Below, piece by piece: positions 1,452-13,505 of a stretch of 34,274 bases of DNA. The stretch is taken from positions 1 to 34,274 of the IMG/VR virus record IMGVR_UViG_3300017917_003636; one strand, 5' to 3'. The notes under the pieces are model-generated. The model did no database searches, had not been told where the DNA came from, and worked only from the letters and a program-made list of their open reading frames with translations. The DNA is from a virus. Every line of letters starts with the position of its first letter. Within the stretch, counting starts at the first letter, position 1. Both the position numbers and the translations under genes were made by a program.

Positions 1452-1458
1452 CAAAAAC

Positions 1459-1474
1459 GTTCTTTAACATATTG
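1459..1474 (+). promoter_or_regulatory. boxA-like element before tRNA-Ser
   Basis: GTTCTTTAACATATTG; its last G is the first base of tRNA-Ser(UGA). It matches the core of the ribosomal boxA antitermination site (E. coli GCTCTTTAACA) and recurs in the RNA island. Confidence 0.6.
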
Positions 1475-1561
1475 GAAGGGTGGCAGAGTTGGTCTATTGC
1501 ACCGGTCTTGAAAACCGGCGATCGTGAAAGCGATCCGTGAGTTCGAATCTCACCCCTTCCG
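1474..1561 (+). tRNA. tRNA-Ser (UGA)
   Basis: Acceptor GGAAGGG/CCCTTCC with discriminator G. Stem CCGGT/ACCGG with loop CTTGAAA gives anticodon UGA. The long variable arm (GATCG/CGATC) is typical of serine. Confidence 0.95.
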
Positions 1562-1569
1562 CTTGATCT

Positions 1570-1643
1570 GTCTTCGTAGCTCAGCTGGATAGAGCAACGC
1601 ACTTCTAATGCGTAGGTCATGTGTTCGAATCACATCGAGGATA
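1570..1643 (+). tRNA. tRNA-Arg (UCU)
   Basis: Acceptor GTCTTCG/CGAGGAT (two wobbles), stem ACGCA/TGCGT with loop CTTCTAA, giving anticodon UCU. The following three bases happen to read CCA; most other tRNAs here are not followed by CCA. Confidence 0.93.
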
Positions 1644-1647
1644 CCAC

Positions 1648-1721
1648 GGTCCCTTAGCTCAGTAGGTTAGAGCAACTGACTCATAATCAGTAGGTCCACG
1701 GTTCGAGCCCGTGAGGGACCA
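1648..1721 (+). tRNA. tRNA-Met (CAU), elongator type
   Basis: Acceptor GGTCCCT/AGGGACC, stem ACTGA/TCAGT with loop CTCATAA, giving anticodon CAU. It lacks the GGG/CCC initiator stem. It could in principle be Ile2 (lysidine-modified), but a separate Ile(UAU) gene makes that unnecessary. Confidence 0.9.
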
Positions 1722-1740
1722 CAAGAATTTTGATTTTAGC

Positions 1741-1772
1741 TTGGTTGCTTAAAAGAAAGTTCTTATATTTAC
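1741..1772 (+). promoter_or_regulatory. Promoter P3 (TTGG ... TTATATTTAC)
   Basis: TTGG at 1741-1744 and TTATATTTAC at 1763-1772, with the same 20-base register and the same preceding GTTC as other copies. It lies 26 bases before the ATG of the small lipoprotein gene. Confidence 0.72.
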
Positions 1773-1798
1773 AACAAATAAAAAACAATAATAATAAA

Positions 1799-1966
1799 AT
1801 GAAAAAAGTATTTTTCGCCCTTGTAGCAATTGCTACCCTTGCTTCATGTTCTAACAACACAGAAGCCACTTCAACGGATTCAACATCATGTGATTCATGT
1901 GCTGTTGATTCAACGGGAATTGATTCTCTTCAGGTTCTTGAAGATTCAATTTACCAAGCCAAGTAA
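1799..1966 (+). CDS. Small lipoprotein inside the tRNA array
   Basis: A 55-residue protein starting MKKVFFALVAIATLASC, a clear signal peptide with lipobox L-A-S-C (Cys at residue 17). The mature part is Thr/Ser/Asp-rich with a CDSC pair. The start at 1799 is chosen over the upstream ATG at 1730 because promoter P3 ends at 1772, and the signal peptide begins exactly at 1799 after an A-rich leader. It lies between tRNA-Met and tRNA-Thr. The product should be anchored in the inner or outer membrane of the host. Superinfection exclusion is a common role for small phage lipoproteins, but nothing here proves it. Confidence 0.78.
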   Translation: MKKVFFALVAIATLASCSNNTEATSTDSTSCDSCAVDSTGIDSLQVLEDSIYQAK

Positions 1967-1978
1967 TTGGCTTAAATT

Positions 1979-2051
1979 GCCCGCGTAGCTCAACTGGCAG
2001 AGCATCGCATTTGTAATGCGAGGGTTGTAGGTTCGATTCCTATCGCTGGCT
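1979..2051 (+). tRNA. tRNA-Thr (UGU)
   Basis: Acceptor GCCCGCG/CGCTGGC has one C-T mismatch (1982/2047). Stem TCGCA/TGCGA with loop TTTGTAA gives anticodon UGU. The T-arm is intact. Confidence 0.9.
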
Positions 2052-2062
2052 CAAAAGAAAAC

Positions 2063-2078
2063 GTTCTTTAACATATTG
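2063..2078 (+). promoter_or_regulatory. boxA-like element before tRNA-Gly
   Basis: GTTCTTTAACATATTG, identical to the copy before tRNA-Ser, again with its last G being the first base of the tRNA. Confidence 0.6.
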
Positions 2079-2149
2079 CAGGTATCGTATAACGGTTATT
2101 ACTCTAGCCTTCCAAGCCTGAGATCTCGGTTCGATTCCGGGTACCTGCT
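2078..2149 (+). tRNA. tRNA-Gly (UCC)
   Basis: Acceptor GCAGGTA/TACCTGC and T-stem CTCGG/CCGGG. Loop CTTCCAA gives anticodon UCC. The anticodon stem (CTAGC/GCCTG) contains two mispairs, which is unusual for a working tRNA. Confidence 0.85.
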
Positions 2150-2185
2150 CAAAAGAAAAGCTTTTTAAGAAATTTTTAAAATAGC

Positions 2186-2217
2186 TTGGATGTTTGAAAT
2201 TCTGTTCGTATATTTAT
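2186..2217 (+). promoter_or_regulatory. Promoter P4 before the large ncRNA
   Basis: TTGG at 2186-2189 and GTATATTTAT at 2208-2217 with the conserved 20-base register and the GTTC extension. The next element downstream is a boxA-like site at 2242 and then the large structured RNA, so this promoter probably drives that RNA. Confidence 0.72.
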
Positions 2218-2241
2218 ATATCAGAAAATTAATAACAAAAC

Positions 2242-2257
2242 GTTCTTTAAATTATTG
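2242..2257 (+). promoter_or_regulatory. boxA-like element before the large ncRNA
   Basis: GTTCTTTAAATTATTG, one of five related copies. By analogy with the tRNA copies, the RNA body would begin at about 2257. Confidence 0.5.
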
Positions 2258-3112
2258 AAATATCCATTCAACGAAAGTTGATAAAAGATATTGGCAGTCT
2301 ATGGTCGTTAAATAAACCTCGAAAGGGGGATAAAGTGAATTGCAAGACAAAGCAGTTTGCGGTTTATAGCAGCTTCGGTTGTTATGAGCTCGAGTAGACA
2401 AGCGGGATATCATTTAGTCTGAAGTAGTGAGGGCAACGCCGTAATGAAATGATTGAATGACTTAGCGATGTGGGTCGTTAGGTTGAGTCCGGAAGGACAA
2501 TAAGAATAACTCGTAGAATATTTGCAAGAAGTATTTCCATCCAGATTTACAATTGCGTTATTCAATATCAAAGGGTACTTAAAGCCGAAAGGCATGTAGA
2601 TGTACAGGTGGTGCTGTTATTTACCTTGTATTTGATTCTACCAAGGGTCGAAACATGAAGTAATCTTGAAGTATGGAGGTAGGGATATCTCAGAGAGTAG
2701 TTTAGTATTTTTTCGCTCAAAAGGTGGGAAAGCTAAAAGGCAGGCCACTACTTTCAATCATCCACGTCACAAACCTTTGCTATTTGGAATGCAAAATTCA
2801 AAACTATCAAAGCAAAAGTGCATGCCAGTCACGGACGAAAGATGCCTACATAGTAATGAGTTGTTCATTGCCACTAGAGGTCGCAAGCCAATAGTGATTC
2901 GTTTGAAAAGTCTATAGCACCGCAAGTGTTAATCAGCTCGGCAGAGTTGAGTAGAAGTACTAGAACGAGAGTAGTCCAATACAAGTGACTTAAAGAGTGG
3001 TTCACTTAAATAACCGGCATTGTTAGGATACAAACCAAAAGTTTGTGGATAAGAAGGGAATAAATAATCCGACAAAAGACCTAACACATAAACGTATAAT
3101 CTCAGCGTTTTA
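2257..3112 (+). ncRNA. Large structured RNA, GOLLD/ROOL-like candidate
   Basis: An ~850-base stretch without a convincing gene but full of stable hairpins, many closed by GNRA or UUCG tetraloops. Seen by eye: CAAC-GAAA-GTTG (2269-2280) inside an AATATC/GATATT stem (2259-2264/2287-2292); CCTC-GAAA-GGGG (2317-2328); an 8-bp stem with UUCG loop (2366-2385); ATCATTT/AAATGAT (2409-2415/2447-2453); GTCC-GGAA-GGAC (2487-2498); GCC-GAAA-GGC (2584-2593); and TGTTAGG/CCTAACA (3021-3027/3080-3086) enclosing ACAAAC/GTTTGT (3030-3046). It has its own promoter and boxA and lies within phage tRNA genes. GOLLD and ROOL are giant ornate RNAs (several hundred bases) known from phages and often next to tRNAs; size and context fit, but I cannot align a covariance model. 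The 3' end is approximate. Confidence 0.7.
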
Positions 3113-3176
3113 AATATTTACGCAAGTTGGACATTATTAGAGGATCGTTTCCTCTATTGCGACAAAGATAAAATTT

Positions 3177-3188
3177 AATATATTTATT
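3177..3188 (+). promoter_or_regulatory. AT-rich promoter-like motif before a short ORF
   Basis: AATATATTTATT, similar to the recurrent AATATTTATAA motif found before structural gene blocks. A TTG about 20 bases upstream (3157-3159) also gives partial fit to the TTGG-type promoter. It precedes the short ORF at 3215. Confidence 0.35.
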
Positions 3189-3214
3189 AGAAACATTTTT
3201 TAAATTCAATAACA

Positions 3215-3301
3215 ATGAAACAACATAGTATATATAATCTTCAGATGAACATTTGGTTTGCGCCGGTGAAGGAAGATTCCGTGTTGGGCTTTGTTGAATG
3301 A
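3215..3301 (+). CDS. Possible 28-residue micropeptide
   Basis: An ATG after an A-rich leader opens a 28-codon frame (MKQHSIYNLQ ... DSVLGFVE) that ends in TGA. A promoter-like AT motif lies 26 bases upstream and a strong terminator 30 bases downstream, so a short transcript unit of about 170 bases is likely. Whether the unit makes the peptide or acts as an RNA is undecided. I do not recognise the peptide; it is neither a signal peptide nor a membrane helix. Confidence 0.35.
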   Translation: MKQHSIYNLQMNIWFAPVKEDSVLGFVE

Positions 3302-3330
3302 TGTGAATAAATTAAAACACTATAAAACGA

Positions 3331-3362
3331 AGCCCGGCCCTCAGAAGCCGGGTTTTTTTTTT
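3331..3362 (+). terminator. Intrinsic terminator
   Basis: Stem CCCGGC (3333-3338) pairs perfectly with GCCGGG (3347-3352) around an 8-base loop, followed by ten T. It is the strongest terminator in the window. It ends the 3177-3330 unit and lies directly before a boxA-like site. Confidence 0.9.
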
Positions 3363-3364
3363 GA

Positions 3365-3380
3365 GTTCTTTGACATATTG
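3365..3380 (+). promoter_or_regulatory. boxA-like element before tRNA-Phe
   Basis: GTTCTTTGACATATTG, two bases after the terminator T-run and ten bases before tRNA-Phe. As I recall, the GTTCTTTGA form is the one found in Bacteroidetes rRNA leaders. Confidence 0.58.
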
Positions 3381-3389
3381 GAAAAAAAT

Positions 3390-3462
3390 GGACTGGTAGC
3401 TCAGTTGGTAGAGCGTTGGCCTGAAGAGCCAAGCGTCGGGGGTTCGAATCCCTCCCAGTCCA
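3390..3462 (+). tRNA. tRNA-Phe (GAA)
   Basis: Acceptor GGACTGG/CCAGTCC, stem TTGGC/GCCAA with loop CTGAAGA, anticodon GAA. All arms pair well. Confidence 0.96.
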
Positions 3463-3493
3463 CAAATTAATACAAAAACGTATTGATTTTTAA

Positions 3494-3566
3494 CTAGGTG
3501 TAGATCAGTTGGTAGATCGGGGCATTTGGGATGCTCAGGCCGCAGGTTCGAGTCCTGCCACTTAGA
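3494..3566 (+). tRNA. tRNA-Pro (UGG)
   Basis: Acceptor CTAGGTG/CACTTAG, D-stem GATC/GATC, stem GGGCA/TGCTC with loop TTTGGGA, anticodon UGG. The C1-G72 start is typical of bacterial tRNA-Pro. Confidence 0.94.
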
Positions 3567-3572
3567 CAAAAC

Positions 3573-3648
3573 GTCTTCGTAGCTCAGTTGGTTTTAGAGC
3601 ACCTCACTTTTAATGAGGGAGTCACAGGTTCGAGTCCTGTCGGGGACA
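3573..3648 (+). tRNA. tRNA-Lys (UUU)
   Basis: Acceptor GTCTTCG/CGGGGAC, stem CCTCA/TGAGG with loop CTTTTAA, anticodon UUU. The D-loop is slightly long. Confidence 0.95.
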
Positions 3649-3746
3649 CAAAGGAAGCACAAGAGAGTCCTTAATGCGCAAATAATATCCTTGTATAGTT
3701 TTTATGTTGGCTCTGATTCTATTTAAAAATGCTATTGCCTTCGACA

Positions 3747-3819
3747 CTTTCCTTAGCTCAGTTGGTAGAGCGCTTCTTTTACATGGAAGATGTCGTTGGT
3801 TCGAATCCAGCAGGAAAGA
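3747..3819 (+). tRNA. tRNA-Val (UAC)
   Basis: Acceptor CTTTCCT/AGGAAAG (C1-G72 is unusual for valine), stem CTTCT/GGAAG with loop TTTACAT, anticodon UAC. I saw no gene in the ~100 bases between it and tRNA-Lys. Confidence 0.93.
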
Positions 3820-3825
3820 CAAAAC

Positions 3826-3907
3826 GCCTGTATCGCATAGCGGCAATTGCTGGGGACTGTAAATCCCCTCCCTTACGGGTTCGGAGGTTCGAGTCCTTCT
3901 GCAGGCA
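3826..3907 (+). tRNA. tRNA-Tyr (GUA)
   Basis: Acceptor GCCTGTA/TGCAGGC, stem GGGGA/TCCCC with loop CTGTAAA, anticodon GUA. It has the long variable arm of bacterial tRNA-Tyr. Confidence 0.95.
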
Positions 3908-3914
3908 CAAATAT

Positions 3915-3988
3915 AGAGTCGTAGCTCAGTTGGTTAGAGCGACTGCCTGATACGCAGTAGGCCATAGGTTCGAGTCCTATCTTCTCTA
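3915..3988 (+). tRNA. tRNA-Ile (GAU), imperfect acceptor
   Basis: Stem ACTGC/GCAGT with loop CTGATAC gives anticodon GAU; the D- and T-arms are intact. The acceptor AGAGTCG/CTTCTCT has two adjacent mispairs (3919/3983 and 3920/3982), so function is uncertain. Confidence 0.88.
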
Positions 3989-3994
3989 CTTAAT

Positions 3995-4068
3995 AGTGAT
4001 ATAGCTCAATTGGTTAGAGTAGATGCCTTATACGCATCCGGTTACGAGTTCGAGTCTCGTTATCACTA
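3995..4068 (+). tRNA. tRNA-Ile (UAU)
   Basis: Acceptor AGTGATA/TATCACT, stem GATGC/GCATC with loop CTTATAC, anticodon UAU. It reads AUA directly, without the lysidine-modified CAU anticodon most bacteria use. Confidence 0.93.
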
Positions 4069-4073
4069 CAGTT

Positions 4074-4157
4074 GGAAAGTAAAACAGTCAGGGCACTGTC
4101 ACCGCCTGCTAAGCGAGTGGTACTTTAGGGTATGAATTTCGATTATTCTGCTTTCCG
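4074..4157 (+). tRNA. tRNA-Ser (GCU)
   Basis: Acceptor GGAAAGT/GCTTTCC with discriminator G, loop CTGCTAA (anticodon GCU) and a long variable arm. The D-arm (ACAGT/ACTGT with a 6-base loop) and the lower anticodon stem are atypical, and one T-stem pair is mismatched. Confidence 0.85.
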
Positions 4158-4190
4158 CTAAAGAAAAAGTATTTATTAACAAAACAAGTC

Positions 4191-4643
4191 ATGGAATTCA
4201 AAACACTACGAGACAGAAAAAAGATCGATTTAGTAGAATATGTGAGGACATATTTGAACACTCACCCAGAAGTTGAGATCCTTATTGGATGTGACTCACA
4301 AAACCATGCTGATTCTACAGTATACGCAACAGTAGTGGCTTTGTATTTCCCTCAAAATGGAGCTCATTTATTGTTCTGCAAAGAGGTTACACCTATTGAA
4401 AGAACAAGACAAGTAAGATTAATGAATGAAGTTTGGAAATCTGTTGATATTGCAGAGCAATTAAGATTAGCAGGTTTACCTAGAGCAAAATATATTGATG
4501 TTGACCTCAACCCAGATAAAAGATATAAATCAAACGAAGTGCTAAGATCAGCAGTAGGTTTAGTTGAAGGTATGGGTTATAATGTGAGATATAAAACATT
4601 AGGTGCGTTAGTAACACATGCTGCTGATGCATTAGTGAAATAA
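4191..4643 (+). CDS. YkuK/DUF458-like RNase H-fold protein
   Basis: A 150-residue soluble protein. Residues 30-51 (ILIGCDSQNH then a Val/Ala-rich strand) and the acidic strand YIDVDLNPDK (101-110) match the RNase H-like fold of the YkuK/DUF458 family, with Asp35, Asp103/Asp105 and Asp146 as candidate metal ligands. A C-terminal VTHAADALVK segment fits the last helix. The family is predicted to be nucleic-acid cleaving; its substrate is not firmly known. It is embedded in the tRNA array, between tRNA-Ser(GCU) and tRNA-Arg(ACG), separated by 33 and 5 bases. That placement makes a role in tRNA or RNA handling attractive, but this is inference. An AT-rich GTATTTATTAAC motif lies just upstream. 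Confidence 0.8.
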   Translation: MEFKTLRDRKKIDLVEYVRTYLNTHPEVEILIGCDSQNHADSTVYATVVALYFPQNGAHLLFCKEVTPIERTRQVRLMNEVWKSVDIAEQLRLAGLPRAKYIDVDLNPDKRYKSNEVLRSAVGLVEGMGYNVRYKTLGALVTHAADALVK

Positions 4644-4648
4644 TCACT

Positions 4649-4720
4649 GGTTCCTTAGTTCAACGGATAGAACAATTGACTACGGATCAATAGATAGGAG
4701 TTCGAATCTCTTAGGAACTA
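4649..4720 (+). tRNA. tRNA-Arg (ACG)
   Basis: Acceptor GGTTCCT/AGGAACT, stem ATTGA/TCAAT with loop CTACGGA, anticodon ACG. Reading of CGC/CGA would depend on the host A-to-I enzyme TadA. Confidence 0.94.
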
Positions 4721-4735
4721 CAATCCGATGTCGGT

Positions 4736-4751
4736 CCCGAGCTAGGTCGGG
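4736..4751 (+). other. Hairpin between tRNAs
   Basis: CCCGA (4736-4740) pairs with TCGGG (4747-4751) around a 6-base loop, with no T-run, between tRNA-Arg and tRNA-Trp. It may be a processing signal; nothing more can be said. Confidence 0.4.
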
Positions 4752-4758
4752 TATTACT

Positions 4759-4829
4759 GCGTCTATGGTGAAATGGTATCATCACGGTCTCCAAAACCGT
4801 TGTTCAGGGTTCGAATCCTTGTGGGCGTG
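4759..4829 (+). tRNA. tRNA-Trp (CCA)
   Basis: Acceptor GCGTCTA/TGGGCGT (three wobbles) with discriminator G, stem ACGGT/ACCGT with loop CTCCAAA, anticodon CCA. Confidence 0.93.
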
Positions 4830-4835
4830 CTAAAT

Positions 4836-4910
4836 GGTGGTTATAGCTCAGTAGGTTAGAGCAAAGGGTTGTGGTCCCTTGTGCCGTGAGTTCGATTCTC
4901 ACTAATCACC
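4836..4910 (+). tRNA. tRNA-His (GUG)
   Basis: An extra G(-1) at 4836 faces C73 at 4910, the identity mark of tRNA-His. Acceptor GTGGTTA/TAATCAC, stem AAGGG/CCCTT with loop TTGTGGT, anticodon GUG. Confidence 0.95.
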
Positions 4911-4946
4911 CAAATAAAAATTTTCCAAAAAATTTCCGCGCAAGGA

Positions 4947-4979
4947 TTTGGAGAAGCGAGATCAGGTTCGTACATTTAC
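4947..4979 (+). promoter_or_regulatory. Promoter P5 (TTTGG ... GTACATTTAC)
   Basis: TTTGG at 4947-4951 and GTACATTTAC at 4970-4979 with the conserved 20-base register; the flanks (GAGAAGCGA) also match P1. It drives the second half of the tRNA array, through a boxA-like site at 5002. Confidence 0.75.
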
Positions 4980-5001
4980 GACATAAGATTAAGAGCAAGA
5001 A

Positions 5002-5017
5002 GTTCATTGACGTATTG
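5002..5017 (+). promoter_or_regulatory. boxA-like element before tRNA-Leu (UAG)
   Basis: GTTCATTGACGTATTG, a two-base variant of the other copies. It lies 23 bases after promoter P5 and 13 bases before the tRNA. Confidence 0.5.
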
Positions 5018-5029
5018 GAAAATTAAAAT

Positions 5030-5110
5030 GCCTTGGTGGTGGAATCGGTAGACACAGCGGTCTTAGAAGCCGTGGCTTTACGCTTGAGAGTTCGAGTCTC
5101 TCCCGAGGTA
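5030..5110 (+). tRNA. tRNA-Leu (UAG)
   Basis: Acceptor GCCTTGG/CCGAGGT, stem GCGGT/GCCGT with loop CTTAGAA, anticodon UAG. It is a type II tRNA, with a shorter variable arm than the first tRNA-Leu. Confidence 0.93.
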
Positions 5111-5115
5111 CAAAT

Positions 5116-5225
5116 AGTCAGGTGGCGCAATGGTAAACGCTAACGTCTCGTGTAAGAATATCAGGTATGCATGGTCAGCCGAAAGGTAAAGATATTCAAT
5201 ACAGGTTCGATTCCTGTCCTGACTA
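5116..5225 (+). tRNA. Atypical 110-nt tRNA-like gene, isotype unresolved
   Basis: The two ends are a perfect tRNA: acceptor AGTCAGG/CCTGACT with A73, D-stem GCG/CGC with a GGTAAA loop, and T-arm ACAGG-TTCGATT-CCTGT. Between the D- and T-arms there is no normal anticodon stem. Instead there is a 7-bp hairpin, GAATATC (5156-5162) with GATATTC (5191-5197), with an inner GCC-GAAA-GGT hairpin. It may be a tRNA with an insertion or giant variable arm, a tRNA-like regulatory RNA, or a degenerate gene. Cys is the only amino acid without a normal tRNA here, but I cannot place a GCA anticodon in a proper loop. Confidence 0.6.
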
Positions 5226-5360
5226 CAGAAGGTGGCAACCCCGAAACATAGAAAGACAAAGTTGCAGTGTTGACCTCAAGTCCCAGTAGGGAGGTACACT
5301 TAAATAAAACATGTCACGAGGAAAGTGTCGACTTAAGAAACGGCAAGTACTAACGAAGGG
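5226..5360 (+). ncRNA. Possible small structured RNA
   Basis: This spacer between the tRNA-like gene and tRNA-Asn has nested pairing: GCAAC/GTTGC (5235-5239/5261-5265) and a compound hairpin GTGT/ACAC, ACCT/AGGT and CCC/GGG (5267-5299). CTTAA/TTAAG (5299-5303/5333-5337) encloses CAC/GTG; since both use C5299 these are partly alternative. No reading frame or promoter is evident. It may be part of one longer RNA with the preceding tRNA-like gene. Confidence 0.4.
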
Positions 5361-5365
5361 ATCAC

Positions 5366-5437
5366 GTCTTGGTAGCTCAGAGGCAGAGCAAGCGGCTGTT
5401 AACCGCTGGGTCGTAGGTTCGAATCCTTCCCAGGACG
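5366..5437 (+). tRNA. tRNA-Asn (GUU)
   Basis: Acceptor GTCTTGG/CCAGGAC, stem AGCGG/CCGCT with loop CTGTTAA, anticodon GUU; discriminator G as usual for asparagine. Confidence 0.95.
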
Positions 5438-5444
5438 CTAAAAT

Positions 5445-5516
5445 GGCCCGTTCGTCTAACGGTTAGGACGTTAGGTTTTCAACCTAGAAACACGAGTTCG
5501 ATTCTCGTACGGGCTA
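5445..5516 (+). tRNA. tRNA-Glu (UUC)
   Basis: Acceptor GGCCCGT/ACGGGCT, stem TTAGG/CCTAG with loop TTTTCAA, anticodon UUC. Confidence 0.95.
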
Positions 5517-5524
5517 CAATAAAT

Positions 5525-5599
5525 TGCGGGGTGGAGGAGATGGTTTCACTTACTGGGCTCATAACCCAGAGATCGCCGGTTCGAGTCCGGCCCCCGCAA
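5525..5599 (+). tRNA. tRNA-fMet (CAU), initiator
   Basis: The anticodon stem CTGGG/CCCAG has the three G-C pairs of initiator tRNAs; loop CTCATAA gives CAU. Acceptor TGCGGGG/CCCCGCA has a U1-A72 pair, where E. coli has a C1/A72 mismatch; either is a weak end. Confidence 0.93.
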
Positions 5600-5605
5600 C
5601 TATAT

Positions 5606-5676
5606 TTTCCTCTCGTCTAATGGCAGGACAAGTGGTTTTGGACCACTTAATCGAGGTTCGAATCCTTGGGGGAAAA
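5606..5676 (+). tRNA. tRNA-Gln (UUG)
   Basis: Acceptor TTTCCTC/GGGGAAA with the weak U1-A72 end typical of tRNA-Gln, stem AGTGG/CCACT with loop TTTTGGA, anticodon UUG. Confidence 0.94.
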
Positions 5677-5681
5677 CAATT

Positions 5682-5754
5682 GGGGTTGTAGCTCAACTGG
5701 CTGAGCGCTACCCTTGCAAGGTAGAGGATGAGGGTTCGAATCCCTTCTGCTCCA
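5682..5754 (+). tRNA. tRNA-Ala (UGC)
   Basis: Loop CTTGCAA in stem CTACC/GGTAG gives UGC. The alanine identity pair G3-U70 is present (5684/5751). One acceptor mismatch, T-T, at 5687/5748. Confidence 0.93.
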
Positions 5755-5755
5755 C

Positions 5756-5870
5756 AAAACATAATATGGGTAGGTAGGATTGTTAGAAGTCGTTGCCCAA
5801 TAACGGTCTAACAAGGTAACGCGCTCTGTTGTAAAATTGGGTAAGCGCTATTAAAGTAGTATTATGTTTT
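5756..5870 (+). ncRNA. Compact RNA with predicted kissing loop
   Basis: The spacer between tRNA-Ala and tRNA-Asp folds on paper into a closed three-way design. A perfect 11-bp closing stem joins 5756-5766 to 5860-5870 (AAAACATAATA/TATTATGTTTT). Inside, TTGTTAGA/TCTAACAA (5780-5787/5807-5814) carries an inner CGTT/AACG hairpin with loop GCCCAAT (5795-5801). A second hairpin GCGCT/AGCGC (5821-5825/5844-5848) has a loop containing ATTGGGT; that segment (5836-5842) can pair with all seven bases of the first loop (six Watson-Crick, one G-U), a kissing loop. There is no reading frame. I do not recognise a known family. It is likely co-transcribed with the tRNAs. Confidence 0.7.
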
Positions 5871-5874
5871 ATAT

Positions 5875-5946
5875 GGTCCATTGGTGTAATGGCTAACATG
5901 CTTGACTGTCTATCAGGCGCTACGAGTTCGATTCTCGTATGGACCG
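5875..5946 (+). tRNA. tRNA-Asp (GUC)
   Basis: Acceptor GGTCCAT/ATGGACC with discriminator G, stem CTTGA/TCAGG with loop CTGTCTA, anticodon GUC. Last tRNA of the island; a short T-run follows two bases later. Confidence 0.95.
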
Positions 5947-6026
5947 CTTTTTTAATTTTCCAATATGTATTGTTGATAAAAGTTTTTTTAAGTGTTGTTG
6001 CGTTCTTAAACATCTAACAACAAAAA

Positions 6027-7922
6027 ATGAAAAAACTACTATTAACTCTTTTGGTCAGCATTCTGACCTTTTCTGCATTTTCGCAGACAACTCCTCCAGC
6101 TCCTGGTACTGGAAAATGGCTTATTGTTGATACTAACTATACAGTTGGTGCTTCAAATGTTGGTGTAACTAAAGCAGATCTTTACTATCGAAACACAACA
6201 AACCAAAAAATTACGGGTATGCAATTCCGTGTTTGGTATGATAAAGATGCCTTTAATGGTGCTGCTCCTACTGTTGCTTTAAAATATCCACCTGCTAACC
6301 AATACATGCAGTATGTTACTAATACCACAGAAGGTAATATTACTGTTACATTAGTTTATACAGGTACAAATGCTGTTTTCTCTTATTTAGATACTGCTGC
6401 TGTTGAAGTTACATTAACTCACGCAGCTCCTGCTATTTGGAATACTTTAGATAGTATAAAAACAATGAAAATTACAGGTACTACAGTATTTAATAACTTA
6501 GCATCTACTAATTTAGGTAATGATACTACTTTAACAATGTATTCTTATGGTGGTCATTTCTTACAACAAACCTTAACTTTTAAAGGAACATTTTTAACTA
6601 CTACTGGGGCTGGGGCTAAAAATTTAACATTATCTTTAGAAAAGAAACCTAAAACAGGTTCTACTTGGACTCAAGTAAATACTTATACAACTAACCTTCA
6701 AGGTAAATTCCAATTTACAGAAACTTTAGATACAACTTATTGGGATACTCGTATTGCTATTCAAGGTGATACAATGGGTGTTGGTAATATATTGTCTACA
6801 GCGGACGCTCAAAAGATTAACCAATCAGTCCTGGCTCAATACACTCCCGTTGGATTCGACTTTTATACAATGGATATAAACAACTCTAATAGCATTACAA
6901 TAACCGATGCTTATGGAGTATTTAGTAAATTAGCAGGTAACTTCCCTTCATGGCCTAACAATACACCTAATTTATTATTTTTTACCCCTACAGAATATAA
7001 TGCTATTAATACAGCTACAACCAGTTTACAAACTACTTATCCAGGGGTAACTAACTTTACTCATTATATTAATGGTGGTGTTGATTCAGTAACTTATTAT
7101 ATAGCTGTTAAAGGTGATGCTAATGCTACTGGTTATCATATGGCTCGTTTAACACCTATTCCAATTATTGTTCCTGAAAAAGCTCCTCAGTATGTGATTG
7201 ATAATACTGTTAAATACGATAATGTAGTTGATAGTATGGAAATTAATATGCCTAAAATATCAGTTAATGAAGGTAATTTAGTTAATATTCCTGTTAAAGT
7301 ATTAACAAACGGTAAATCATTAAGTGCTTTACAACTTTATTTAAAATATGACGATGATTTACTTGAATTTAAAAAAGTAATTAACAGTGAAAAAGCAATG
7401 AAATGGATGACTTATGTAAATCCTTCAAATGGAGTTGTTGCTTGGGGAGGATTTGATATAACTAATTCAAACTTTTTTAATGATGGAGAACAAGCATTTA
7501 CTTTACAATTTATAGCCAAACAACCTCAAGATCAATGGACTACAGCTGCTTTATGGACAAGTGATAAGTATGTTGGTGACCAATCCTCTAGGGATCTTAA
7601 TATCACCCCAGCAATGGGAATTGTTGAAGTAAAAAAAGTAATTTTCAAACCAGAAGTAAATAGTTCAATTTTAGATCTTAAAATAGCTCCTAATCCAAAC
7701 GATGGTAATTATTTAGTATCATTTAATATAATTGAAGATGGTATAACAGAAGTTTCACTTTTTGATATGCAAGGTCGTAAATTAGGAACTTTAGTAAATG
7801 AATTAATGCCTGCTGGTGAATATTTATACTCAGCTAAATTTTTAGTTAAAGGTGGTATATATTATACAACTGTTACCAATAATGGAAAATCAGCAACTTA
7901 TAAAACTGTAATTTTAAAATAA
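6027..7922 (+). CDS. Secreted cohesin/dockerin-like protein with T9SS sorting domain
   Basis: A 631-residue exported protein. Residues 1-20 are a signal peptide (MKKLLLTLLVSILTFSAFSQ). Residues about 30-150 form a beta domain with cohesin-like strands; 175-250 look like a prealbumin/CarboxypepD-regulatory-type beta domain. Residues 276-304 (FDFYTMDINNSNSITITDAY ...) are a dockerin-like calcium-binding repeat. Residues 404-540 are a second, clearer cohesin-like domain (NEGNLVNIPVKV ... LQLYLKYDDDLLEF). Residues 543-631 match the T9SS type A C-terminal sorting domain (IAPNPNDGNYLVSF, VSLFDMQGRKLG, GIYYTTV, final KTVILK). T9SS carries such proteins across the outer membrane of Bacteroidetes, so the phage protein should end on the host surface. 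A paralogous middle region occurs in the product at 10410. Leader is A-rich; a boxA-like GTTCTTAAACAT lies at 6002. Exact ligand unknown. Confidence 0.82.
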   Translation: MKKLLLTLLVSILTFSAFSQTTPPAPGTGKWLIVDTNYTVGASNVGVTKADLYYRNTTNQKITGMQFRVWYDKDAFNGAAPTVALKYPPANQYMQYVTNTTEGNITVTLVYTGTNAVFSYLDTAAVEVTLTHAAPAIWNTLDSIKTMKITGTTVFNNLASTNLGNDTTLTMYSYGGHFLQQTLTFKGTFLTTTGAGAKNLTLSLEKKPKTGSTWTQVNTYTTNLQGKFQFTETLDTTYWDTRIAIQGDTMGVGNILSTADAQKINQSVLAQYTPVGFDFYTMDINNSNSITITDAYGVFSKLAGNFPSWPNNTPNLLFFTPTEYNAINTATTSLQTTYPGVTNFTHYINGGVDSVTYYIAVKGDANATGYHMARLTPIPIIVPEKAPQYVIDNTVKYDNVVDSMEINMPKISVNEGNLVNIPVKVLTNGKSLSALQLYLKYDDDLLEFKKVINSEKAMKWMTYVNPSNGVVAWGGFDITNSNFFNDGEQAFTLQFIAKQPQDQWTTAALWTSDKYVGDQSSRDLNITPAMGIVEVKKVIFKPEVNSSILDLKIAPNPNDGNYLVSFNIIEDGITEVSLFDMQGRKLGTLVNELMPAGEYLYSAKFLVKGGIYYTTVTNNGKSATYKTVILK

Positions 7923-7923
7923 A

Positions 7924-8259
7924 ATGAGCGAAGAAACACACAACGACGGTACATGGTCAGGTCTTAAAAAGACTTTAATAGGAACTTTATCAACAGCTGT
8001 ATTGGCTGGAGGTACTTGGTTTACAACAACTTTATTTGGAGGTCACGAAGAAGAATCTAAAGAAGAAACCAAAACAGAACAAGCAGCTCCGGCTTCATCA
8101 GCAGCACCTGTTGTAATTAATGTTCAACAAAACCAAGAAAATAAACAACAAGTTAAACAAGGTGGTGGAACTGTTGTTAAAGAAAGAATAATTGAAAAAC
8201 CAGTTGAAAAGCCAACTCCTGCTAAGGCTGATCCTGTAAATGACGAGGACCCATGGTAA
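7924..8259 (+). CDS. Small single-helix membrane protein
   Basis: A 111-residue protein with one hydrophobic segment (about residues 18-40: LIGTLSTAVLAGGTWFTTTL) followed by a charged, Glu/Lys/Gln/Pro-rich tail (EEESKEETKTEQAAP, later VEKPTPAKADP). There is no cleavable signal peptide, so it is likely anchored in the inner membrane with the tail extending into the periplasm or cytoplasm. The start lies one base after the upstream stop, and its last codons overlap the start of the CsgG-like gene by 7 bases, suggesting coupled translation. Family unknown; a role as scaffold or envelope-spanning partner for the neighbouring lipoprotein is inference. Confidence 0.72.
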   Translation: MSEETHNDGTWSGLKKTLIGTLSTAVLAGGTWFTTTLFGGHEEESKEETKTEQAAPASSAAPVVINVQQNQENKQQVKQGGGTVVKERIIEKPVEKPTPAKADPVNDEDPW

Positions 8260-8942
8260 GAAAAATAATTTGGTTGTTGTTAATACCTTTATTAACAGCC
8301 TGTGGTTCTATGAAGACTACAACTGAAGATGATGTTATTGAAACTAAAAGTATTTCAACTGTTTCTAACTACACAGATAGCTTAAAATATGCTGTTCAAG
8401 TAGTAAACGTTGATATGACTAAAGTTCTAACCCTTTACCCAGATTTACAAGAAAAAGGTGTTGGTTTAGGATTTGCTGAGTCAGTACTTGATTATTTGGA
8501 TGAAACTGGACGATTTATATTTACTGAAGAAAAATCTGAAATCAAAGAAAGAATGGTTACTCAATTTAAAGCTTCTAAAAAAGGAATCTTTGAAGAGCCC
8601 ATTGATGGAAAAGGTAAGATTAAAGCTGCTCGTTACTTTGTTTATGTTACTGTGGCCGATTTTGCTGTTGATGAAGATGAAACTATTGAAAAAGGCAAAG
8701 CGAAAGTTGTTGTAACAACATTCATTCGCCTTCAAGTAAGATTTGTAGACGCTGAAACAGGACAAATTTATATAGGATCAGGAGAAGGTGAAGCCACTAA
8801 AACCGGTGAAGCTTTCTTAAAATCTTTAGATGGAATGAAATTCTCTCAAAGTACTGTTGGTAAGGCGACTCGTAAATCTTTAGAAACTGCTACAACTAAA
8901 GTAATCGAAAACCTTATTAAAAACGGTGTATTTAAAAATTAA
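8253..8942 (+). CDS. CsgG-like outer-membrane lipoprotein
   Basis: A 229-residue protein with a lipoprotein signal (MVRKIIWLLLIPLLTAC, Cys17). The mature part has the layout of the CsgG family: a helix with GLGFAESVLDYLDETGRFIF (about 71-90), a helix with KSEIKERMVTQF, a strand with KAARYFVYVTVADF (125-137), then the paired strands VVTTFIRLQVRFVDAETGQI (153-172) and SGEGEA. CsgG forms the outer-membrane pore of curli secretion. Homologues in phages have been noted before, from memory in marine T4-like and SAR11 phages. The loop expected to form the transmembrane hairpins (about 139-157) is short, so it may be a CsgG-domain lipoprotein without full pore strands. It overlaps the genes on both sides. 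Confidence 0.75.
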   Translation: MVRKIIWLLLIPLLTACGSMKTTTEDDVIETKSISTVSNYTDSLKYAVQVVNVDMTKVLTLYPDLQEKGVGLGFAESVLDYLDETGRFIFTEEKSEIKERMVTQFKASKKGIFEEPIDGKGKIKAARYFVYVTVADFAVDEDETIEKGKAKVVVTTFIRLQVRFVDAETGQIYIGSGEGEATKTGEAFLKSLDGMKFSQSTVGKATRKSLETATTKVIENLIKNGVFKN

Positions 8943-10413
8943 ATTATTAATTTTATGTCTTATTGGAGGACTGTCTCTTTACGGGCAGTCCTTCATGTAC
9001 TCATATACAGATCCTTGTACTCATGAGATGAAGACTATTGTTTATGATATGAGTGCTCCTATAGTAGTTTCATATTATGGACAAACTAGAGCATTTACAT
9101 ATAATGAAATGCAAAGTGGTGTGTTTGATAGTTGGTTATCAACAGTTTATTCTCAATATACTACTCAACCGTGTCAGGGAGTATTAACAACAATAACAAC
9201 CACATCATCTACAACATTAACTACAAATGTTATAAACACGGTTTTAAACCTTAGTACGATAACTTCTATTACTTCCATGGGAGGTATCGGAAATAATATT
9301 GGAAGCACAGTAAACACAGGTACAAACGTTGAAGAAAAAAAAGGAGGAAAAGATGAGAAAAATGGAAAAAATAATAACAATAACTCTACCAATCCTGGTA
9401 ATAATAATGTTGTTTCTAACCCAACACCCAATAGTAGCTCTAATGGTAACACCACTGGTACTAATGCTGGGGGCAATGTTTCTGGGGGGACTACTGGAGG
9501 AGGAGAACAAACAAATCCAACAACAACTTCAGGAGAAGGACAACCAACTACAAACCCAGAAACCGGAAACCCTACAACAAATCCAGAACAGACTGGAGGA
9601 TCTGGAGGAAATATAGGTACAAGTAGTAATCCTAATGGAGGAAGTAATGGTAGTACTCAAAGTAGTTCAAATGAAACAACACCACCCTCACAAAGTGAAA
9701 TAGATAAAACTAAAGCAGATCAACAAAAAGCTACTTCTAGTAATGCTGCTAAGACAACCTCTAAAGCTAAAAATGAAACTAATAAACCCGCTATTTTATT
9801 AACAGGAGATATAGTAGGTTTACAAAAAACAACAGATAGTACTCAGGATGCTAGAGGAACAATTTCTTATACTAGAGTAAAAGGTGACGGAACAGCATCT
9901 TTAGGAGTATCAGCTGATTATATGGTTAATGCTAAGATTGGAAATATTACTGTAATGAAATCTTGGATAGCAACTAAAAATAATGGTGATAAAAGTATTA
10001 ATTTAGTATCATCAGGATTTTCATTTATGCCAGGATCTATTACTAATACTTCAATGTTTATTAGAATTAATAGTCTTAAAAAATTTACTGCACTTTACGG
10101 TGTTGCTGGTTCTTATGGACAGTTGTATAGAGAAGAAATAATAACAGGTTTAGGTATTGCTGGGTTTATGTATAAAGGGAAAATAGCTAAAAAAGTAGAT
10201 GCTACTATTATTTTAGCAGGTGTTTATGCTCCTTATACAAAATATTATACTTCAACTTGGTTTACAAATATGCCACTTGTGGTTCCTTTTATTAATTTAA
10301 ATTATAAAATGACTAAAACATTTGGAATGGGTTTAACAGGAGGTACTACTTATATGGCTGGTCAAAATGTTATTAATTATCAAGTATTATTAGGAGCAAA
10401 GCTTATATTATGA
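8926..10413 (+). CDS. Exported protein with low-complexity linker and C-terminal barrel-like domain
   Basis: A 495-residue protein. It begins with GTG at 8926, overlapping the upstream gene by 17 bases; the frame gives a good signal peptide (KIKLLILCLIGGLSLYG then Q). Residues 21-110 are a small domain with two cysteines. Residues about 135-285 are a long Asn/Thr/Ser/Gly-rich linker. Residues 290-495 have alternating beta strands ending in aromatic or hydrophobic residues (GVSADYMVNAKIG, YKMTKTFGMGLTGG, final LLGAKLIL), as expected of an outer-membrane beta-barrel. The position directly after a CsgG-like lipoprotein suggests both act at the outer membrane. I cannot name the family. The GTG start is unusual here; other genes use ATG. 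Confidence 0.75.
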   Translation: MYLKIKLLILCLIGGLSLYGQSFMYSYTDPCTHEMKTIVYDMSAPIVVSYYGQTRAFTYNEMQSGVFDSWLSTVYSQYTTQPCQGVLTTITTTSSTTLTTNVINTVLNLSTITSITSMGGIGNNIGSTVNTGTNVEEKKGGKDEKNGKNNNNNSTNPGNNNVVSNPTPNSSSNGNTTGTNAGGNVSGGTTGGGEQTNPTTTSGEGQPTTNPETGNPTTNPEQTGGSGGNIGTSSNPNGGSNGSTQSSSNETTPPSQSEIDKTKADQQKATSSNAAKTTSKAKNETNKPAILLTGDIVGLQKTTDSTQDARGTISYTRVKGDGTASLGVSADYMVNAKIGNITVMKSWIATKNNGDKSINLVSSGFSFMPGSITNTSMFIRINSLKKFTALYGVAGSYGQLYREEIITGLGIAGFMYKGKIAKKVDATIILAGVYAPYTKYYTSTWFTNMPLVVPFINLNYKMTKTFGMGLTGGTTYMAGQNVINYQVLLGAKLIL

Positions 10414-11486
10414 GATTATTAATTTGGATTATTTTTTTATTTTTTAGTATTCAACTAAATGCTCAATCTCCTTTATGTTCTAGTTATCCTACTAGTTTCT
10501 GCTGTGAATATGTTTCTAGTGTAACTATTAATGGACAAACATATAACGGGAGCAATGGATATGCTGCTACTTCAGGAGGTACTGGTCCTAATGGATATTA
10601 TGATTATACAGGAGGAACTGCTGTACCTACTATTACAGCCGGGCAAAATATTTCAATTTCATATACTGCTCAAACAAATGGGAATTATATGGAATATTTT
10701 AAATTATGGGTTGATTTTAATGGTAATGGAGTTTTAAGTGATGCTGGGGAACAGGTTTATGCTTATAATGTGTCTTGGACTGGTACTAAAACAGTTACAT
10801 CAACATTTCAAGTACCCACTACTGTATTTAATGGGCAGGTTTACATGCGTTTTATGATGGTATATGCTAATGTTCCTGCTTTATGTGGTAGTTATGCTTA
10901 TGGAAATACTTTTGATTTTAAAACAACTATTACAGGTGCTCAAGATCCTTTTTCATATTCAGGATATGTTTATGGAGCTGAGGGAACAGGGATACCTAAT
11001 ATTCCTGTTCAACTTTATAGTAAATTAAAATCTTCATCTACTTATACTTACTTAAGTACTCATAATACTGATGCTAATGGAAAATATTCTTTAACATCTT
11101 CTAGAGATGCTAATACTTATGACTTTCAATTAGTATTTGGTACTTTAACTATTGGTTCTCCTTCTACAAGTGATGCTCAAACTTTTAATCAAAAGGTTCT
11201 CTATCAATCTTTCAATTCAAAAGATTATTATAGGATGGATGTTAATATAGATGGTACTTTAACTATAACAGATGTTTATTTGGTATTTATGAAAATAATA
11301 GGTAGAGCCTGGAAGCTGGGAGTACCTAATTATCGAATATTTACCCCAACAGAATATAATACTATAAATTCATCAACATCAAACCTAAGAACCACATACC
11401 CAGGACAACAAAGTATTACTATAAATGGGTTAACCAATCAAGGTAATACAAATTTTTATTTAATACGAACCGGATTTAACAATTAA
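10410..11486 (+). CDS. Secreted GEVED- and dockerin-like protein
   Basis: A 358-residue exported protein. Residues 1-19 are a signal peptide (ending QLNAQ). Residues 45-185 match the GEVED domain of Bacteroidetes surface proteins (YFKLWVDFNGNGVLSDAGEQ at about 95, then a strand with YMRFMMVY). Residues 184-245 are a CarboxypepD-regulatory-type beta domain (DANGKYSL). Residues 272-300 are a dockerin-like repeat (YYRMDVNIDGTLTITDVYLV). The C terminus shares FTPTEYN and TTYPG with the protein at 6027, so the two arose from one ancestor. Unlike that protein, this one ends without a T9SS sorting domain or cohesin. Its start overlaps the upstream stop (ATGA). An inferred job is to bind the cohesin part of the 6027 protein on the host surface. 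Confidence 0.8.
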   Translation: MRLLIWIIFLFFSIQLNAQSPLCSSYPTSFCCEYVSSVTINGQTYNGSNGYAATSGGTGPNGYYDYTGGTAVPTITAGQNISISYTAQTNGNYMEYFKLWVDFNGNGVLSDAGEQVYAYNVSWTGTKTVTSTFQVPTTVFNGQVYMRFMMVYANVPALCGSYAYGNTFDFKTTITGAQDPFSYSGYVYGAEGTGIPNIPVQLYSKLKSSSTYTYLSTHNTDANGKYSLTSSRDANTYDFQLVFGTLTIGSPSTSDAQTFNQKVLYQSFNSKDYYRMDVNIDGTLTITDVYLVFMKIIGRAWKLGVPNYRIFTPTEYNTINSSTSNLRTTYPGQQSITINGLTNQGNTNFYLIRTGFNN

Positions 11487-11488
11487 TT

Positions 11489-11905
11489 ATGCTAAACATT
11501 TTACTACCTCTTTTTCTTACATTTACTAATCCTCAAGTAGATACAGTTTATAATACTTCTAAAATTCAAAAAATAGGTGAACGTGATGTTACCTTTGGTG
11601 TTAAAGAAACTGTTGAGGAAATTGCCTTAGACAAAAAAGTTGAAGGTCACATTACTGTGGAAATATCTAATATTGAATCACCCCAACAAATGCTTAATAT
11701 TGTTGGTATGCAATGGTTAAAAAAGGATTATATAGTTGATGTTAAAGTTACTATTGATGGAAAAATATATGAAGGGAAAGCAATGAGAAAAACATTTTTA
11801 TTTGCTGCCTTTTTAAATGTAGAAGGTGGAGAAGTACCTTTAAATACCAAATCATTTTCTAAAGCTTTACAAAAATCCTTAGAGGATGCCTTTAATAATC
11901 TTTAA
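11489..11905 (+). CDS. Small exported protein, possible CsgE-like
   Basis: A 138-residue protein with a short hydrophobic start (MLNILLPLFLTFT) that could be a signal peptide. The mature part has an amphipathic strand pattern (EGHITVEISNIE, DYIVDVKVTIDGKIYEG) and a helical end (KALQKSLEDAF). The pattern ITVEI ... W ... DVKVTIDG ... RKTFLFA faintly resembles CsgE, a periplasmic partner of CsgG, but the similarity is weak and by eye only. It is the last gene of the secreted module, two bases after the upstream stop. A promoter-like AATATTTATAA and the holin gene follow. Confidence 0.6.
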   Translation: MLNILLPLFLTFTNPQVDTVYNTSKIQKIGERDVTFGVKETVEEIALDKKVEGHITVEISNIESPQQMLNIVGMQWLKKDYIVDVKVTIDGKIYEGKAMRKTFLFAAFLNVEGGEVPLNTKSFSKALQKSLEDAFNNL

Positions 11906-11915
11906 ATATTTATAA
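11904..11915 (+). promoter_or_regulatory. Late-promoter-like motif before lysis genes
   Basis: AAATATTTATAA overlaps the end of the preceding gene and lies 56 bases before the holin ATG. It is one of several near-identical copies before late gene blocks. Confidence 0.4.
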
Positions 11916-11971
11916 TAAAGTTTCCCACAATCAGTTGTGTTTTGTGAAAATAAAAAACAAAACAAACAAAA

Positions 11972-12241
11972 ATGAAAAATTTCTTTAAAAATTTATTTGA
12001 CGACAACAACACTATTAATGAAAAGGCAGTTGTTGGATTTATTGCTTTTGTAATGCTTTGCATTTCATTAGCTGTTGACCTTATTACGGGATACTTCGGT
12101 AATCCGTTATTGATTAACAAATTTATCTTTGATGGATTTATGGTCCTAGTATTAGGTTCATTTGGTATTGCATCTGTGGATAAATGGATGAACAAAAAAG
12201 ACAAACACGAAGAAGATAAAGATAACGAAAACGCAGAATAA
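11972..12241 (+). CDS. Holin
   Basis: An 89-residue protein with two hydrophobic helices (about 17-40, VVGFIAFVMLCISLAVDLI, and 50-70, IFDGFMVLVLGSFGIASV) and a highly charged C-terminal tail (KKDKHEEDKDNENAE). Size, two-helix layout and charged tail are those of class II or phage-lambda-type small holins. It is followed by the endolysin gene with a TAATG overlap, which supports the call. It would make lesions in the inner membrane at a set time and release the endolysin. The start follows an A-rich leader (AAACAAAAATG). Confidence 0.8.
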   Translation: MKNFFKNLFDDNNTINEKAVVGFIAFVMLCISLAVDLITGYFGNPLLINKFIFDGFMVLVLGSFGIASVDKWMNKKDKHEEDKDNENAE

Positions 12242-12852
12242 TGAGTTTAAAAAGTTTACAAGAAAGAGTAGGAGTAGCAGCTGATGGTGCTTTTGGTCCT
12301 GGTACTATGAAAGCCGCTATGGTAATGTTAAAATTAACCCCTGTTAGAGCAGCTCATTTCTTTGCTCAAACATCACATGAAACAGGTGGTTTTAAAGCAT
12401 TTTCAGAAAACCTAAATTATTCAGCACAAGGTTTACAAGGTATTTTTGGGAAATATTTCCCAGGTACTTTAGAAGAATCTTATGCTCGTCAACCTGAAAA
12501 GATTGCTAATAGGGTTTATGCTGATAGAATGGGTAATGGTAATGAAGCTTCTGGTGATGGATGGAAATATAGAGGACGTGGTGCTCTTCAATTAACAGGA
12601 AAAGCTAACTATGAAGCATTTGCTAAATATTTAGGTACTAATGAGGTAATGGAAAATCCTGATTTAGTAGCTACCAAGTATTCATTCGATTCAGCTATGT
12701 TTTTCTTTGAAAAAAACAAATTATGGACAATTTGTGATAAAGGAATTAACGATGCTGCTATTTTAGAATTAACTAAAAGAATCAATGGTGGTACTCATGG
12801 TTTAGAAGATAGAAAATTAAAAACTTATAAATACTACGAATACGTAAAATAA
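12241..12852 (+). CDS. GH19-type endolysin
   Basis: A 203-residue peptidoglycan hydrolase. Residues 6-26 (LQERVGVAADGAFGPGTM) look like a short peptidoglycan-binding repeat. The catalytic domain has the GH19/chitinase-like lysozyme pattern: Glu47 in SHETGGF, SENLNYSAQGL (55-65), then YRGRGALQLTGKANYEAFAK. The enzyme would cut the glycan strands of the host wall. No signal peptide is present, so it needs the holin made from the gene just upstream, whose stop overlaps its start (TAATG). Length is normal for a phage GH19 endolysin. Specificity for muramidase or chitinase activity cannot be judged from sequence; phage context favours peptidoglycan. Confidence 0.9.
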   Translation: MSLKSLQERVGVAADGAFGPGTMKAAMVMLKLTPVRAAHFFAQTSHETGGFKAFSENLNYSAQGLQGIFGKYFPGTLEESYARQPEKIANRVYADRMGNGNEASGDGWKYRGRGALQLTGKANYEAFAKYLGTNEVMENPDLVATKYSFDSAMFFFEKNKLWTICDKGINDAAILELTKRINGGTHGLEDRKLKTYKYYEYVK

Positions 12853-13442
12853 TGAATTATACAAGAGAACAAATAGAAGCCGCTGTAAAAGCTAAAGGAT
12901 ATGCTTGGTTTGAAGGTGCGAAAGATTTTGATGTTAATATTGTTGGGGTTAGAAACTCTGCAACTGGTCAAGTAGTTACTAATGTTTTTGATGATACAAT
13001 GACTGTATCTTACAAAGAAGGTGGTGAATGGAAATTTCATCAATGGCCTTGTACTACAGACCCAGGTAAAAAAGGAGTAAAAGAATATCATAACGCAGCA
13101 GGCGTTGCTCGTTTAGTTGAAGGTCAATACAGAGGTTCACATACCCTAGGTTTACACCAAGGAAAATATGAAGCTTTAAAACAAGCAAAACCAGTTAAAG
13201 TTTATCGTGATGCAAATCGTGATATGACTTATGATGAAACTAAAATTGCTGAGGGTGTATTTGGTATTAATATCCACAAAGCAGGTGCAGATTCTACTTA
13301 TGTAGAAAACTGGTCTGAAGGATGCCAGGTATTCAAAAAAGCAACTGATTTTGAAGCATTTATGGCTATTGCTCGTAAAGCAGCAGCTATTCATGGTAAA
13401 TCATTTACTTATACACTGATAGAATCAGCAGATATAAAATAA
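12852..13442 (+). CDS. YkuD-like protein of the lysis cassette
   Basis: A 196-residue soluble protein starting at a TAATG overlap with the endolysin. Residues 138-161 (GINIHKAG ... NWSEGCQVF) carry a His142-x12-SEGC158 pattern close to the L,D-transpeptidase (YkuD) signature H-x-S/T-HGC; the residue before Gly157 is Glu rather than His. Proteins with SEGC next to phage endolysins are common in my memory and often unassigned. It could cut or re-link peptidoglycan peptides, or have lost activity and bind wall material. There is no signal peptide or membrane helix. It is the last gene before the terminator at 13470. Confidence 0.75.
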   Translation: MNYTREQIEAAVKAKGYAWFEGAKDFDVNIVGVRNSATGQVVTNVFDDTMTVSYKEGGEWKFHQWPCTTDPGKKGVKEYHNAAGVARLVEGQYRGSHTLGLHQGKYEALKQAKPVKVYRDANRDMTYDETKIAEGVFGINIHKAGADSTYVENWSEGCQVFKKATDFEAFMAIARKAAAIHGKSFTYTLIESADIK

Positions 13443-13469
13443 TTGTATATATAATTTTACAAAAACTAG

Positions 13470-13505
13470 CGCGGAATCATATGAAGGTTCCGCGTTTTGT
13501 TTTTA
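13470..13505 (+). terminator. Intrinsic terminator after lysis genes
   Basis: CGCGGAA (13470-13476) pairs perfectly with TTCCGCG (13488-13494) around an 11-base loop, followed by TTTTGTTTTTAT. It closes the envelope/lysis region and precedes the next promoter-like motif. Confidence 0.88.

Follow-up and report, generated by a model that had tools for sequence, protein, structure and literature searches.

A conserved six-gene set in large viruses of Flavobacterium-like hosts, apparently for mounting an exchangeable protein of sugar-binding type on the surface of the infected cell

Introduction

Phages are known to carry curli (type VIII secretion) operons, which have been described in pelagiphages (PMC7029224, PMC9599517) and in Melnitz (PMC9004378), and for which the proposed roles are defence against superinfection, 'sibling capture' or the timing of lysis. 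Phage-encoded cargo of T9SS is likewise known, both from Cryophage, whose authors suggest that it serves superinfection exclusion (PMC7468147), and near BACON proteins (PMC6949934). Though both kinds of system are thus already known from phages, no report was found of the combination that occurs in the locus considered here. This lies in a stretch of viral DNA of 34,274 nucleotides (IMG/VR record IMGVR_UViG_3300017917_003636; hereafter, the window). In the literature searched there was also no relevant report of a phage cohesin with T9SS, or of phage cohesin or dockerin parts. The strongest new points are that a six-gene unit with a predicted CsgG-fold protein is conserved, and that the outer domain of one of its proteins (B) is exchanged on a constant scaffold.

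Like the phage curli operons, the window cassette has a CsgG-fold lipoprotein together with exported, probably adhesive proteins in a phage operon. A further likeness is PA14, which is joined to the curlin repeats of gp18 of Pelagibacter phage HTVC008M and here serves, in some relatives, as the outer domain of B. (That gp18, at 10638–11963 of sequence L066, is annotated as hypothetical; Pfam finds in it a PA14 domain and then curlin repeats, so that a domain of ligand-binding type is here carried by an amyloid-type part. As a word, PA14 is absent from PMC9599517.) Unlike the curli operons, in whose place of curlin repeats and CsgF (neither found here) stand cohesins, a dockerin-like module and a T9SS tail, the present locus has Bacteroidota hosts and only distant sequence similarity to CsgG. 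With Cryophage and the phages with BACON proteins it shares phage proteins that bear T9SS sorting tails, and variable cargo. The difference is that variation in Cryophage affects the proteins with the tail (endoglucanase, GH39, PA14), and in the present cassette the untailed partner of a constant tailed protein. The likeness to the cellulosome is that the cohesin folds are near those of scaffoldin cohesins, and that the partner has a dockerin-type loop beside a beta-sandwich module; the differences are that the module has one loop, no enzymes are seen, a T9SS tail replaces the usual anchors, the parts are virus-borne and the binding is putative. The same set of genes is present in an isolated phage, immuto (gp13–gp19), though there, unlike in the window, A is split in two and B is a C-type lectin protein encoded upstream of A.

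The six-gene cassette and its distribution

The first of the six genes is A, followed by those for the small membrane protein, the CsgG-like protein and the barrel-like protein, then B, and last a short paralogue of the CsgG-like gene (positions below are those of the window, and all genes and domains of the cassette, as well as the lysis-type genes after it, are on the + strand). This order recurs in more than 100 viral loci, fetched as IMG/VR relatives of A, of B and of the CsgG-like protein. It is kept in nearly all relatives, and absent members are mostly at contig ends. In a few clades the short paralogue is moved, being found before A in L038–L044 and before B in L015, L018, L032, L037 and L046. 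A scan for the CsgG-like protein confirmed at least 522 viral relatives among 600 candidate stretches, a count of places and not of phages, since one phage may recur. The corresponding profile scan of 84,980 bacterial genomes, which reaches only sequences with its short patterns, gave four loci, three of them in phage-like surroundings within MAG bins and the fourth a single short match, and thus no clear cellular copy or host source of the gene.

Protein A

Protein A (631 aa, 6027..7922, the open reading frame as first annotated) is a T9SS cargo scaffold with the order signal peptide, cohesin fold 1, TTR/dockerin-like module, cohesin 2 and T9SS type A tail. A signal peptide, a cohesin-like domain and the type A tail had been claimed for it by the first-pass annotation, and all three are borne out, PF00963 and TIGR04183 both scoring over their curated cut-offs. 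The signal peptide is assigned from the sequence itself with the help of a simple pattern rule; by that rule signal-peptide-like starts are present in 107 of 108 A homologues and in nearly all B homologues. Cohesin 2 (residues 405–524, 7239..7598) matches PF00963 with E 1.1e-7 and 32.5 bits against a cut-off of 24.1; its profile matches the scaffoldin/cellulosomal cohesins 2vn5 and 1g1k in PDB at E 3e-5, and residues 402–523 of the predicted structure align with the scaffoldin cohesin 2vn5_A at a VIA-align Z of 11.0. A cohesin is present in 22 of 28 A homologues. The sorting domain (residues 553–629, 7683..7913) matches TIGR04183 with E 4.9e-8 and 32.8 bits (cut-off 23). The Pfam tail model PF18962 gives E 0.0017 on window A, below its cut-off, and each of the two models matches 27 of the 28 homologues at E<=0.01. 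In immuto and in seven large IMG/VR records (155–270 kb) there is exactly one T9SS tail per record, in A or its counterpart gp15.

The N-terminal domain of A (residues 26–181, 6102..6569) is predicted to be a second cohesin fold. In the structure that AlphaFold predicts for A (mean pLDDT 71.5, pTM 0.47) it aligns with the scaffoldin cohesin 4fl4_I at a VIA-align Z of 12.2 (rmsd 2.9 over 137 residues), and the leading VIA-align matches are cohesins without exception. In three related phages PF00963 matches the corresponding N-terminal segment, with E 2e-5, 9e-5 and 6e-4, all below cut-off; the fold and these sub-threshold profile matches are what the assignment consists of. The comparison of cohesin 2 with the N-terminal domain by hhalign gave no convincing match (probability 1.6), so the kinship of the two cohesin domains rests on fold.

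Protein B and the module common to A and B

Protein B (358 aa, 10410..11486, again the open reading frame as first annotated) has a signal peptide, a GEVED domain (residues 96–171, 10695..10922; PF20009, E 5.9e-13) as its exchangeable outer domain, and then a module in common with A. The earlier claim that B has GEVED without a sorting tail is upheld: a profile scan of the window protein found no T9SS tail. The short motifs FTPTEYN and TTYPG, noted at the start as common to A and B, turn out to belong to a larger module of 168 residues that is 39% identical between the two proteins (E 2e-32). By alignment with A, it occupies residues 179–358 of B (10944..11483); in A it occupies residues 181–372 (6567..7142). 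Its layout is a TTR-like sandwich followed by a single dockerin-type loop and helices, in A a one-loop helix-loop-helix. Against PDB its profile finds a TTR-like match at E 0.0017 and no significant dockerin match.

The canonical dockerin has a pair of loops. A 'dockerin-like repeat' had been reported in A and B, and of this one loop stands, fitting the pattern DxNxxxxIxIxD (DINNSNSITITD at 6873..6908 in A); the loop of B (DVNIDGTLTITD at 11238–11273) also fits a dockerin loop. The duplicated pair does not stand: the alignments of A and of B have one clear calcium-type loop and no second dockerin loop-helix repeat. Loop positions 1, 3 and 12 (D283, N285 and D294) are invariant in the 28-row alignment of A, though in immuto gp14 the first Asp is replaced by Asn. 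Dockerin_1 (PF00404), the one of four profiles proposed for checking the locus that did not respond on the window proteins (TIGR04183, PF00963 and GEVED did), has no match at E<1 in window A or B. It does match 6 of 28 A homologues (best E 2.2e-4), and some B relatives weakly (E 0.015–0.075, below cut-off).

The CsgG-like protein and the remaining members

The third gene (8253..8942) encodes a lipoprotein of 229 aa with the lipobox LTAC, a candidate subunit of an outer-membrane pore. In its predicted monomer model (mean pLDDT 72.5) the product appears to be of CsgG fold: the first 25 Foldseek matches are CsgG (E 2.8e-7 to 3.7e-5, probability 1.00), with TM-scores that are low (0.31–0.51), and by VIA-align it reaches Z 12.3 against CsgG over 173 residues, versus 9.5 for the best non-CsgG, PelC. 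Sequence comparison is less forthcoming. Pfam CsgG has no match in the window protein and matches 4 of 20 homologues, the best at E 0.0016; the profile of the family matches a two-sequence alignment of true CsgG only weakly (probability 19.6), and nothing was found with it among PDB sequences. The pore itself is putative. The last gene (11489..11905) encodes a short exported paralogue of 138 aa, which hhalign connects to the CsgG-like profile (probability 97%, E 4e-11), and which finds nothing significant in PDB.

Between A and the CsgG-like gene is a small membrane protein (111 aa, 7924..8259), conserved across the cassette, with one N-terminal hydrophobic segment and a Q/N/P-rich tail. The barrel-like protein (495 aa, 8926..10413), described from its sequence and homologues, has a signal peptide, a conserved N-terminal domain (YSYxDPC...VxYYGQ), a Ser/Asn/Gly-rich linker and a C-terminal barrel-like domain; the latter has no match among PDB profiles. 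Pfam finds neither curlin repeats nor CsgF in the window cassette proteins or in the B variants scanned.

Exchange of the outer domain of B

By outer domain, five groups of B homologues can be told apart: GEVED, C-type lectin, PA14 and two for which Pfam gives no match. Some members of the C-type lectin group also have LamG or Ig-like domains. Where the outer domain is GEVED or a long lectin it precedes the TTR-like domain; where it is PA14, a short C-type lectin or of an unnamed type it lies inside that domain. (The two types without a Pfam match, represented by L070 9993–11195 and L142 10402–11580, are candidate undescribed ligand-binding domains.)

On a tree of 80 CsgG-like proteins, with moderate branch supports, the five states require 29 changes. 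As the least possible is 4 and the mean after shuffling is 38.9, the domains cluster somewhat yet change often. Exchange is also apparent at close range. In contigs L083 and L084 the DNA is 91–98% identical on both sides, bar short indels, and the B outer domains are unrelated. Among 171 pairs of cassettes whose CsgG-like proteins are at least 90% identical, the outer domains are below 40% identity in 117 (median 26%). In those 117 the constant parts remain alike (A ~78%, barrel 77%), and the B module is down to 38% identity, so that exchange often takes along part of the module. Such exchange suggests that what is displayed or bound matters and changes, though it could occur for reasons apart from display, for example the binding of a virion or a nutrient.

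The split scaffold of immuto

In the isolated Flavobacterium phage vB_FspM_immuto (MW353176) the same gene set, gp13–gp19, is rearranged and A is two genes. gp14 has a signal peptide, the N-terminal domain and the dockerin-like module, ends at an LGDVNGTG motif and has no tail; gp15 has its own signal peptide, a cohesin (PF00963, E 6e-9) and the sorting tail (PF18962, E 5e-9). The B counterpart, gp13, has a C-type lectin domain (E 1.9e-15) and the module, lacks a tail and is upstream of the A genes. The depositors' names in GenBank are 'cohesin domain-containing' for gp15 and 'lectin C-type' for gp13. The split of A fits parts that meet non-covalently. Since two cohesin-fold domains and two dockerin-like modules are here distributed over three proteins, a chain from gp15 to gp14 to gp13 is suggested by the domain content. 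(L141 was considered as a second split A and rejected, as its second open reading frame starts inside the protein and is without a signal peptide.)

Proposed surface display and its alternatives

Taken together, the six genes of these large viruses of Flavobacterium-like hosts would seem to serve for mounting an exchangeable protein, of a sugar-binding type, on the surface of the infected cell, with parts like the cellulosomal cohesin-dockerin clip and the pore for curli export. From known T9SS biology, the host T9SS would carry A across the outer membrane and anchor it. B, because it is without a T9SS tail, would perhaps cross by the CsgG-like putative pore, and would then be held on A by a cohesin-dockerin-type contact. 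The infected cell would thereby present a variable ligand-binding domain, whether GEVED, C-type lectin, LamG or PA14. That the parts of the cassette form such a surface-display unit is believed with slightly more confidence than doubt, from domain content and predicted structures. The first-pass annotation had also proposed a phage surface complex, and the virus-borne T9SS cargo with genuine cohesins, the tail-less partner with matching module and the conserved operon of these two signal-peptide proteins support it in part; what goes beyond it is a candidate pore of CsgG type, a further cohesin in A and the swapping of the outer domain in B. Against display by this route stand the one loop of the module where the canonical dockerin has a pair, and the weak match of the CsgG-like protein to the true CsgG profile. 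Further, A has the module itself and so could bind itself instead of B.

The likeliest use would be to alter what sticks to the infected cell. Exchange of the outer domain is expected both for the masking of competing phages' receptors and for adhesion to varying partners; superinfection blocking by such masking is conceivable but doubtful as the specific use, and adhesion or aggregation before lysis equally so. In its fullest form the reading is tentative, if plausible: a distinct virus surface apparatus, with a T9SS-exported cohesin scaffold, interchangeable lectin-type proteins, a dockerin-like clip and a dedicated CsgG-like pore, in which the mounted domain is swapped among close phages like receptor-binding tips.

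The cassette could still remodel the cell surface if A and B were secreted separately and without mutual binding, in which case the parts with cohesin fold and dockerin-like loop would be structural modules of Bacteroidota-type surface proteins. The single loop, the silence of Dockerin_1 on the window proteins and the TTR-like part being the best-supported fold of the module are all in keeping with this. However, module and cohesins occur together in almost every cassette, and in immuto gp14 and gp15 are split and have separate signal peptides, with gp14 and gp13 tail-less. Separate secretion is on these grounds rather unlikely.

A role in lysis or release is raised by what follows the cassette: the CsgG-like protein would form a pore in the outer membrane ahead of lysis, and A, B and the barrel-like product would help to disrupt that membrane. 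Directly downstream in the window are genes for a holin-like membrane protein (11972–12241) and a GH19-type endolysin (12241–12852), then a second lysis-related gene (12852–13442), with a strong terminator-like hairpin at 13468–13496 on its 3′ side. The hairpin is consistent with the transcription of A and all genes down to the last lysis-related one as a single unit in the window phage, and a pinholin or secretin role has been proposed for the CsgG of Melnitz (PMC9004378). But lysis-type genes adjoin the cassette in many, not all, relatives; in several the endolysin is on the opposite strand, in immuto the adjoining genes are without lysis annotation, and a lysis protein would not be expected to carry exchangeable domains of lectin, PA14 or GEVED type, so that this reading is improbable. 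The quick swap of ligand-binding domains also resembles that of tail-fibre tips, as if A and B were virion decorations or receptor-binding parts. The signal-peptide-like starts, the T9SS tail and the separate six-gene unit argue otherwise, as does immuto, whose cassette (11–16 kb) and baseplate genes (82 kb) lie wide apart, and a place in the virion is judged highly improbable.

If the surface-display reading is true, the virus re-dresses infected bacteria, ahead of lysis, in a binding protein that can be exchanged, and the exchange pattern says that the thing displayed matters. Phage curli operons and phage T9SS cargo would then be joined in a single idea, and a cohesin-dockerin-type clip would exist in a virus, for which the literature searched held no earlier report. 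The isolated phage immuto and its Flavobacterium host would offer a test system.

The window phage and its relatives

The closest relative of the window baseplate protein is that of immuto (46% over 616 residues), so the window phage is an immuto-like phage of myovirus type, probably with a Flavobacterium-like host. The phages with cassette A and B are T4-like and related to a Flavobacterium phage. One sequence binned as a Sphingomonadaceae MAG (L061, RFPL01000028.1) bears a cassette of the Flavobacterium-phage type, probably through a binning error. Elsewhere in the window, a cluster of 23 tRNA genes (1366–5947) is directly upstream of the cassette, and the tail region has an open reading frame of 1916 aa (22918–28668).
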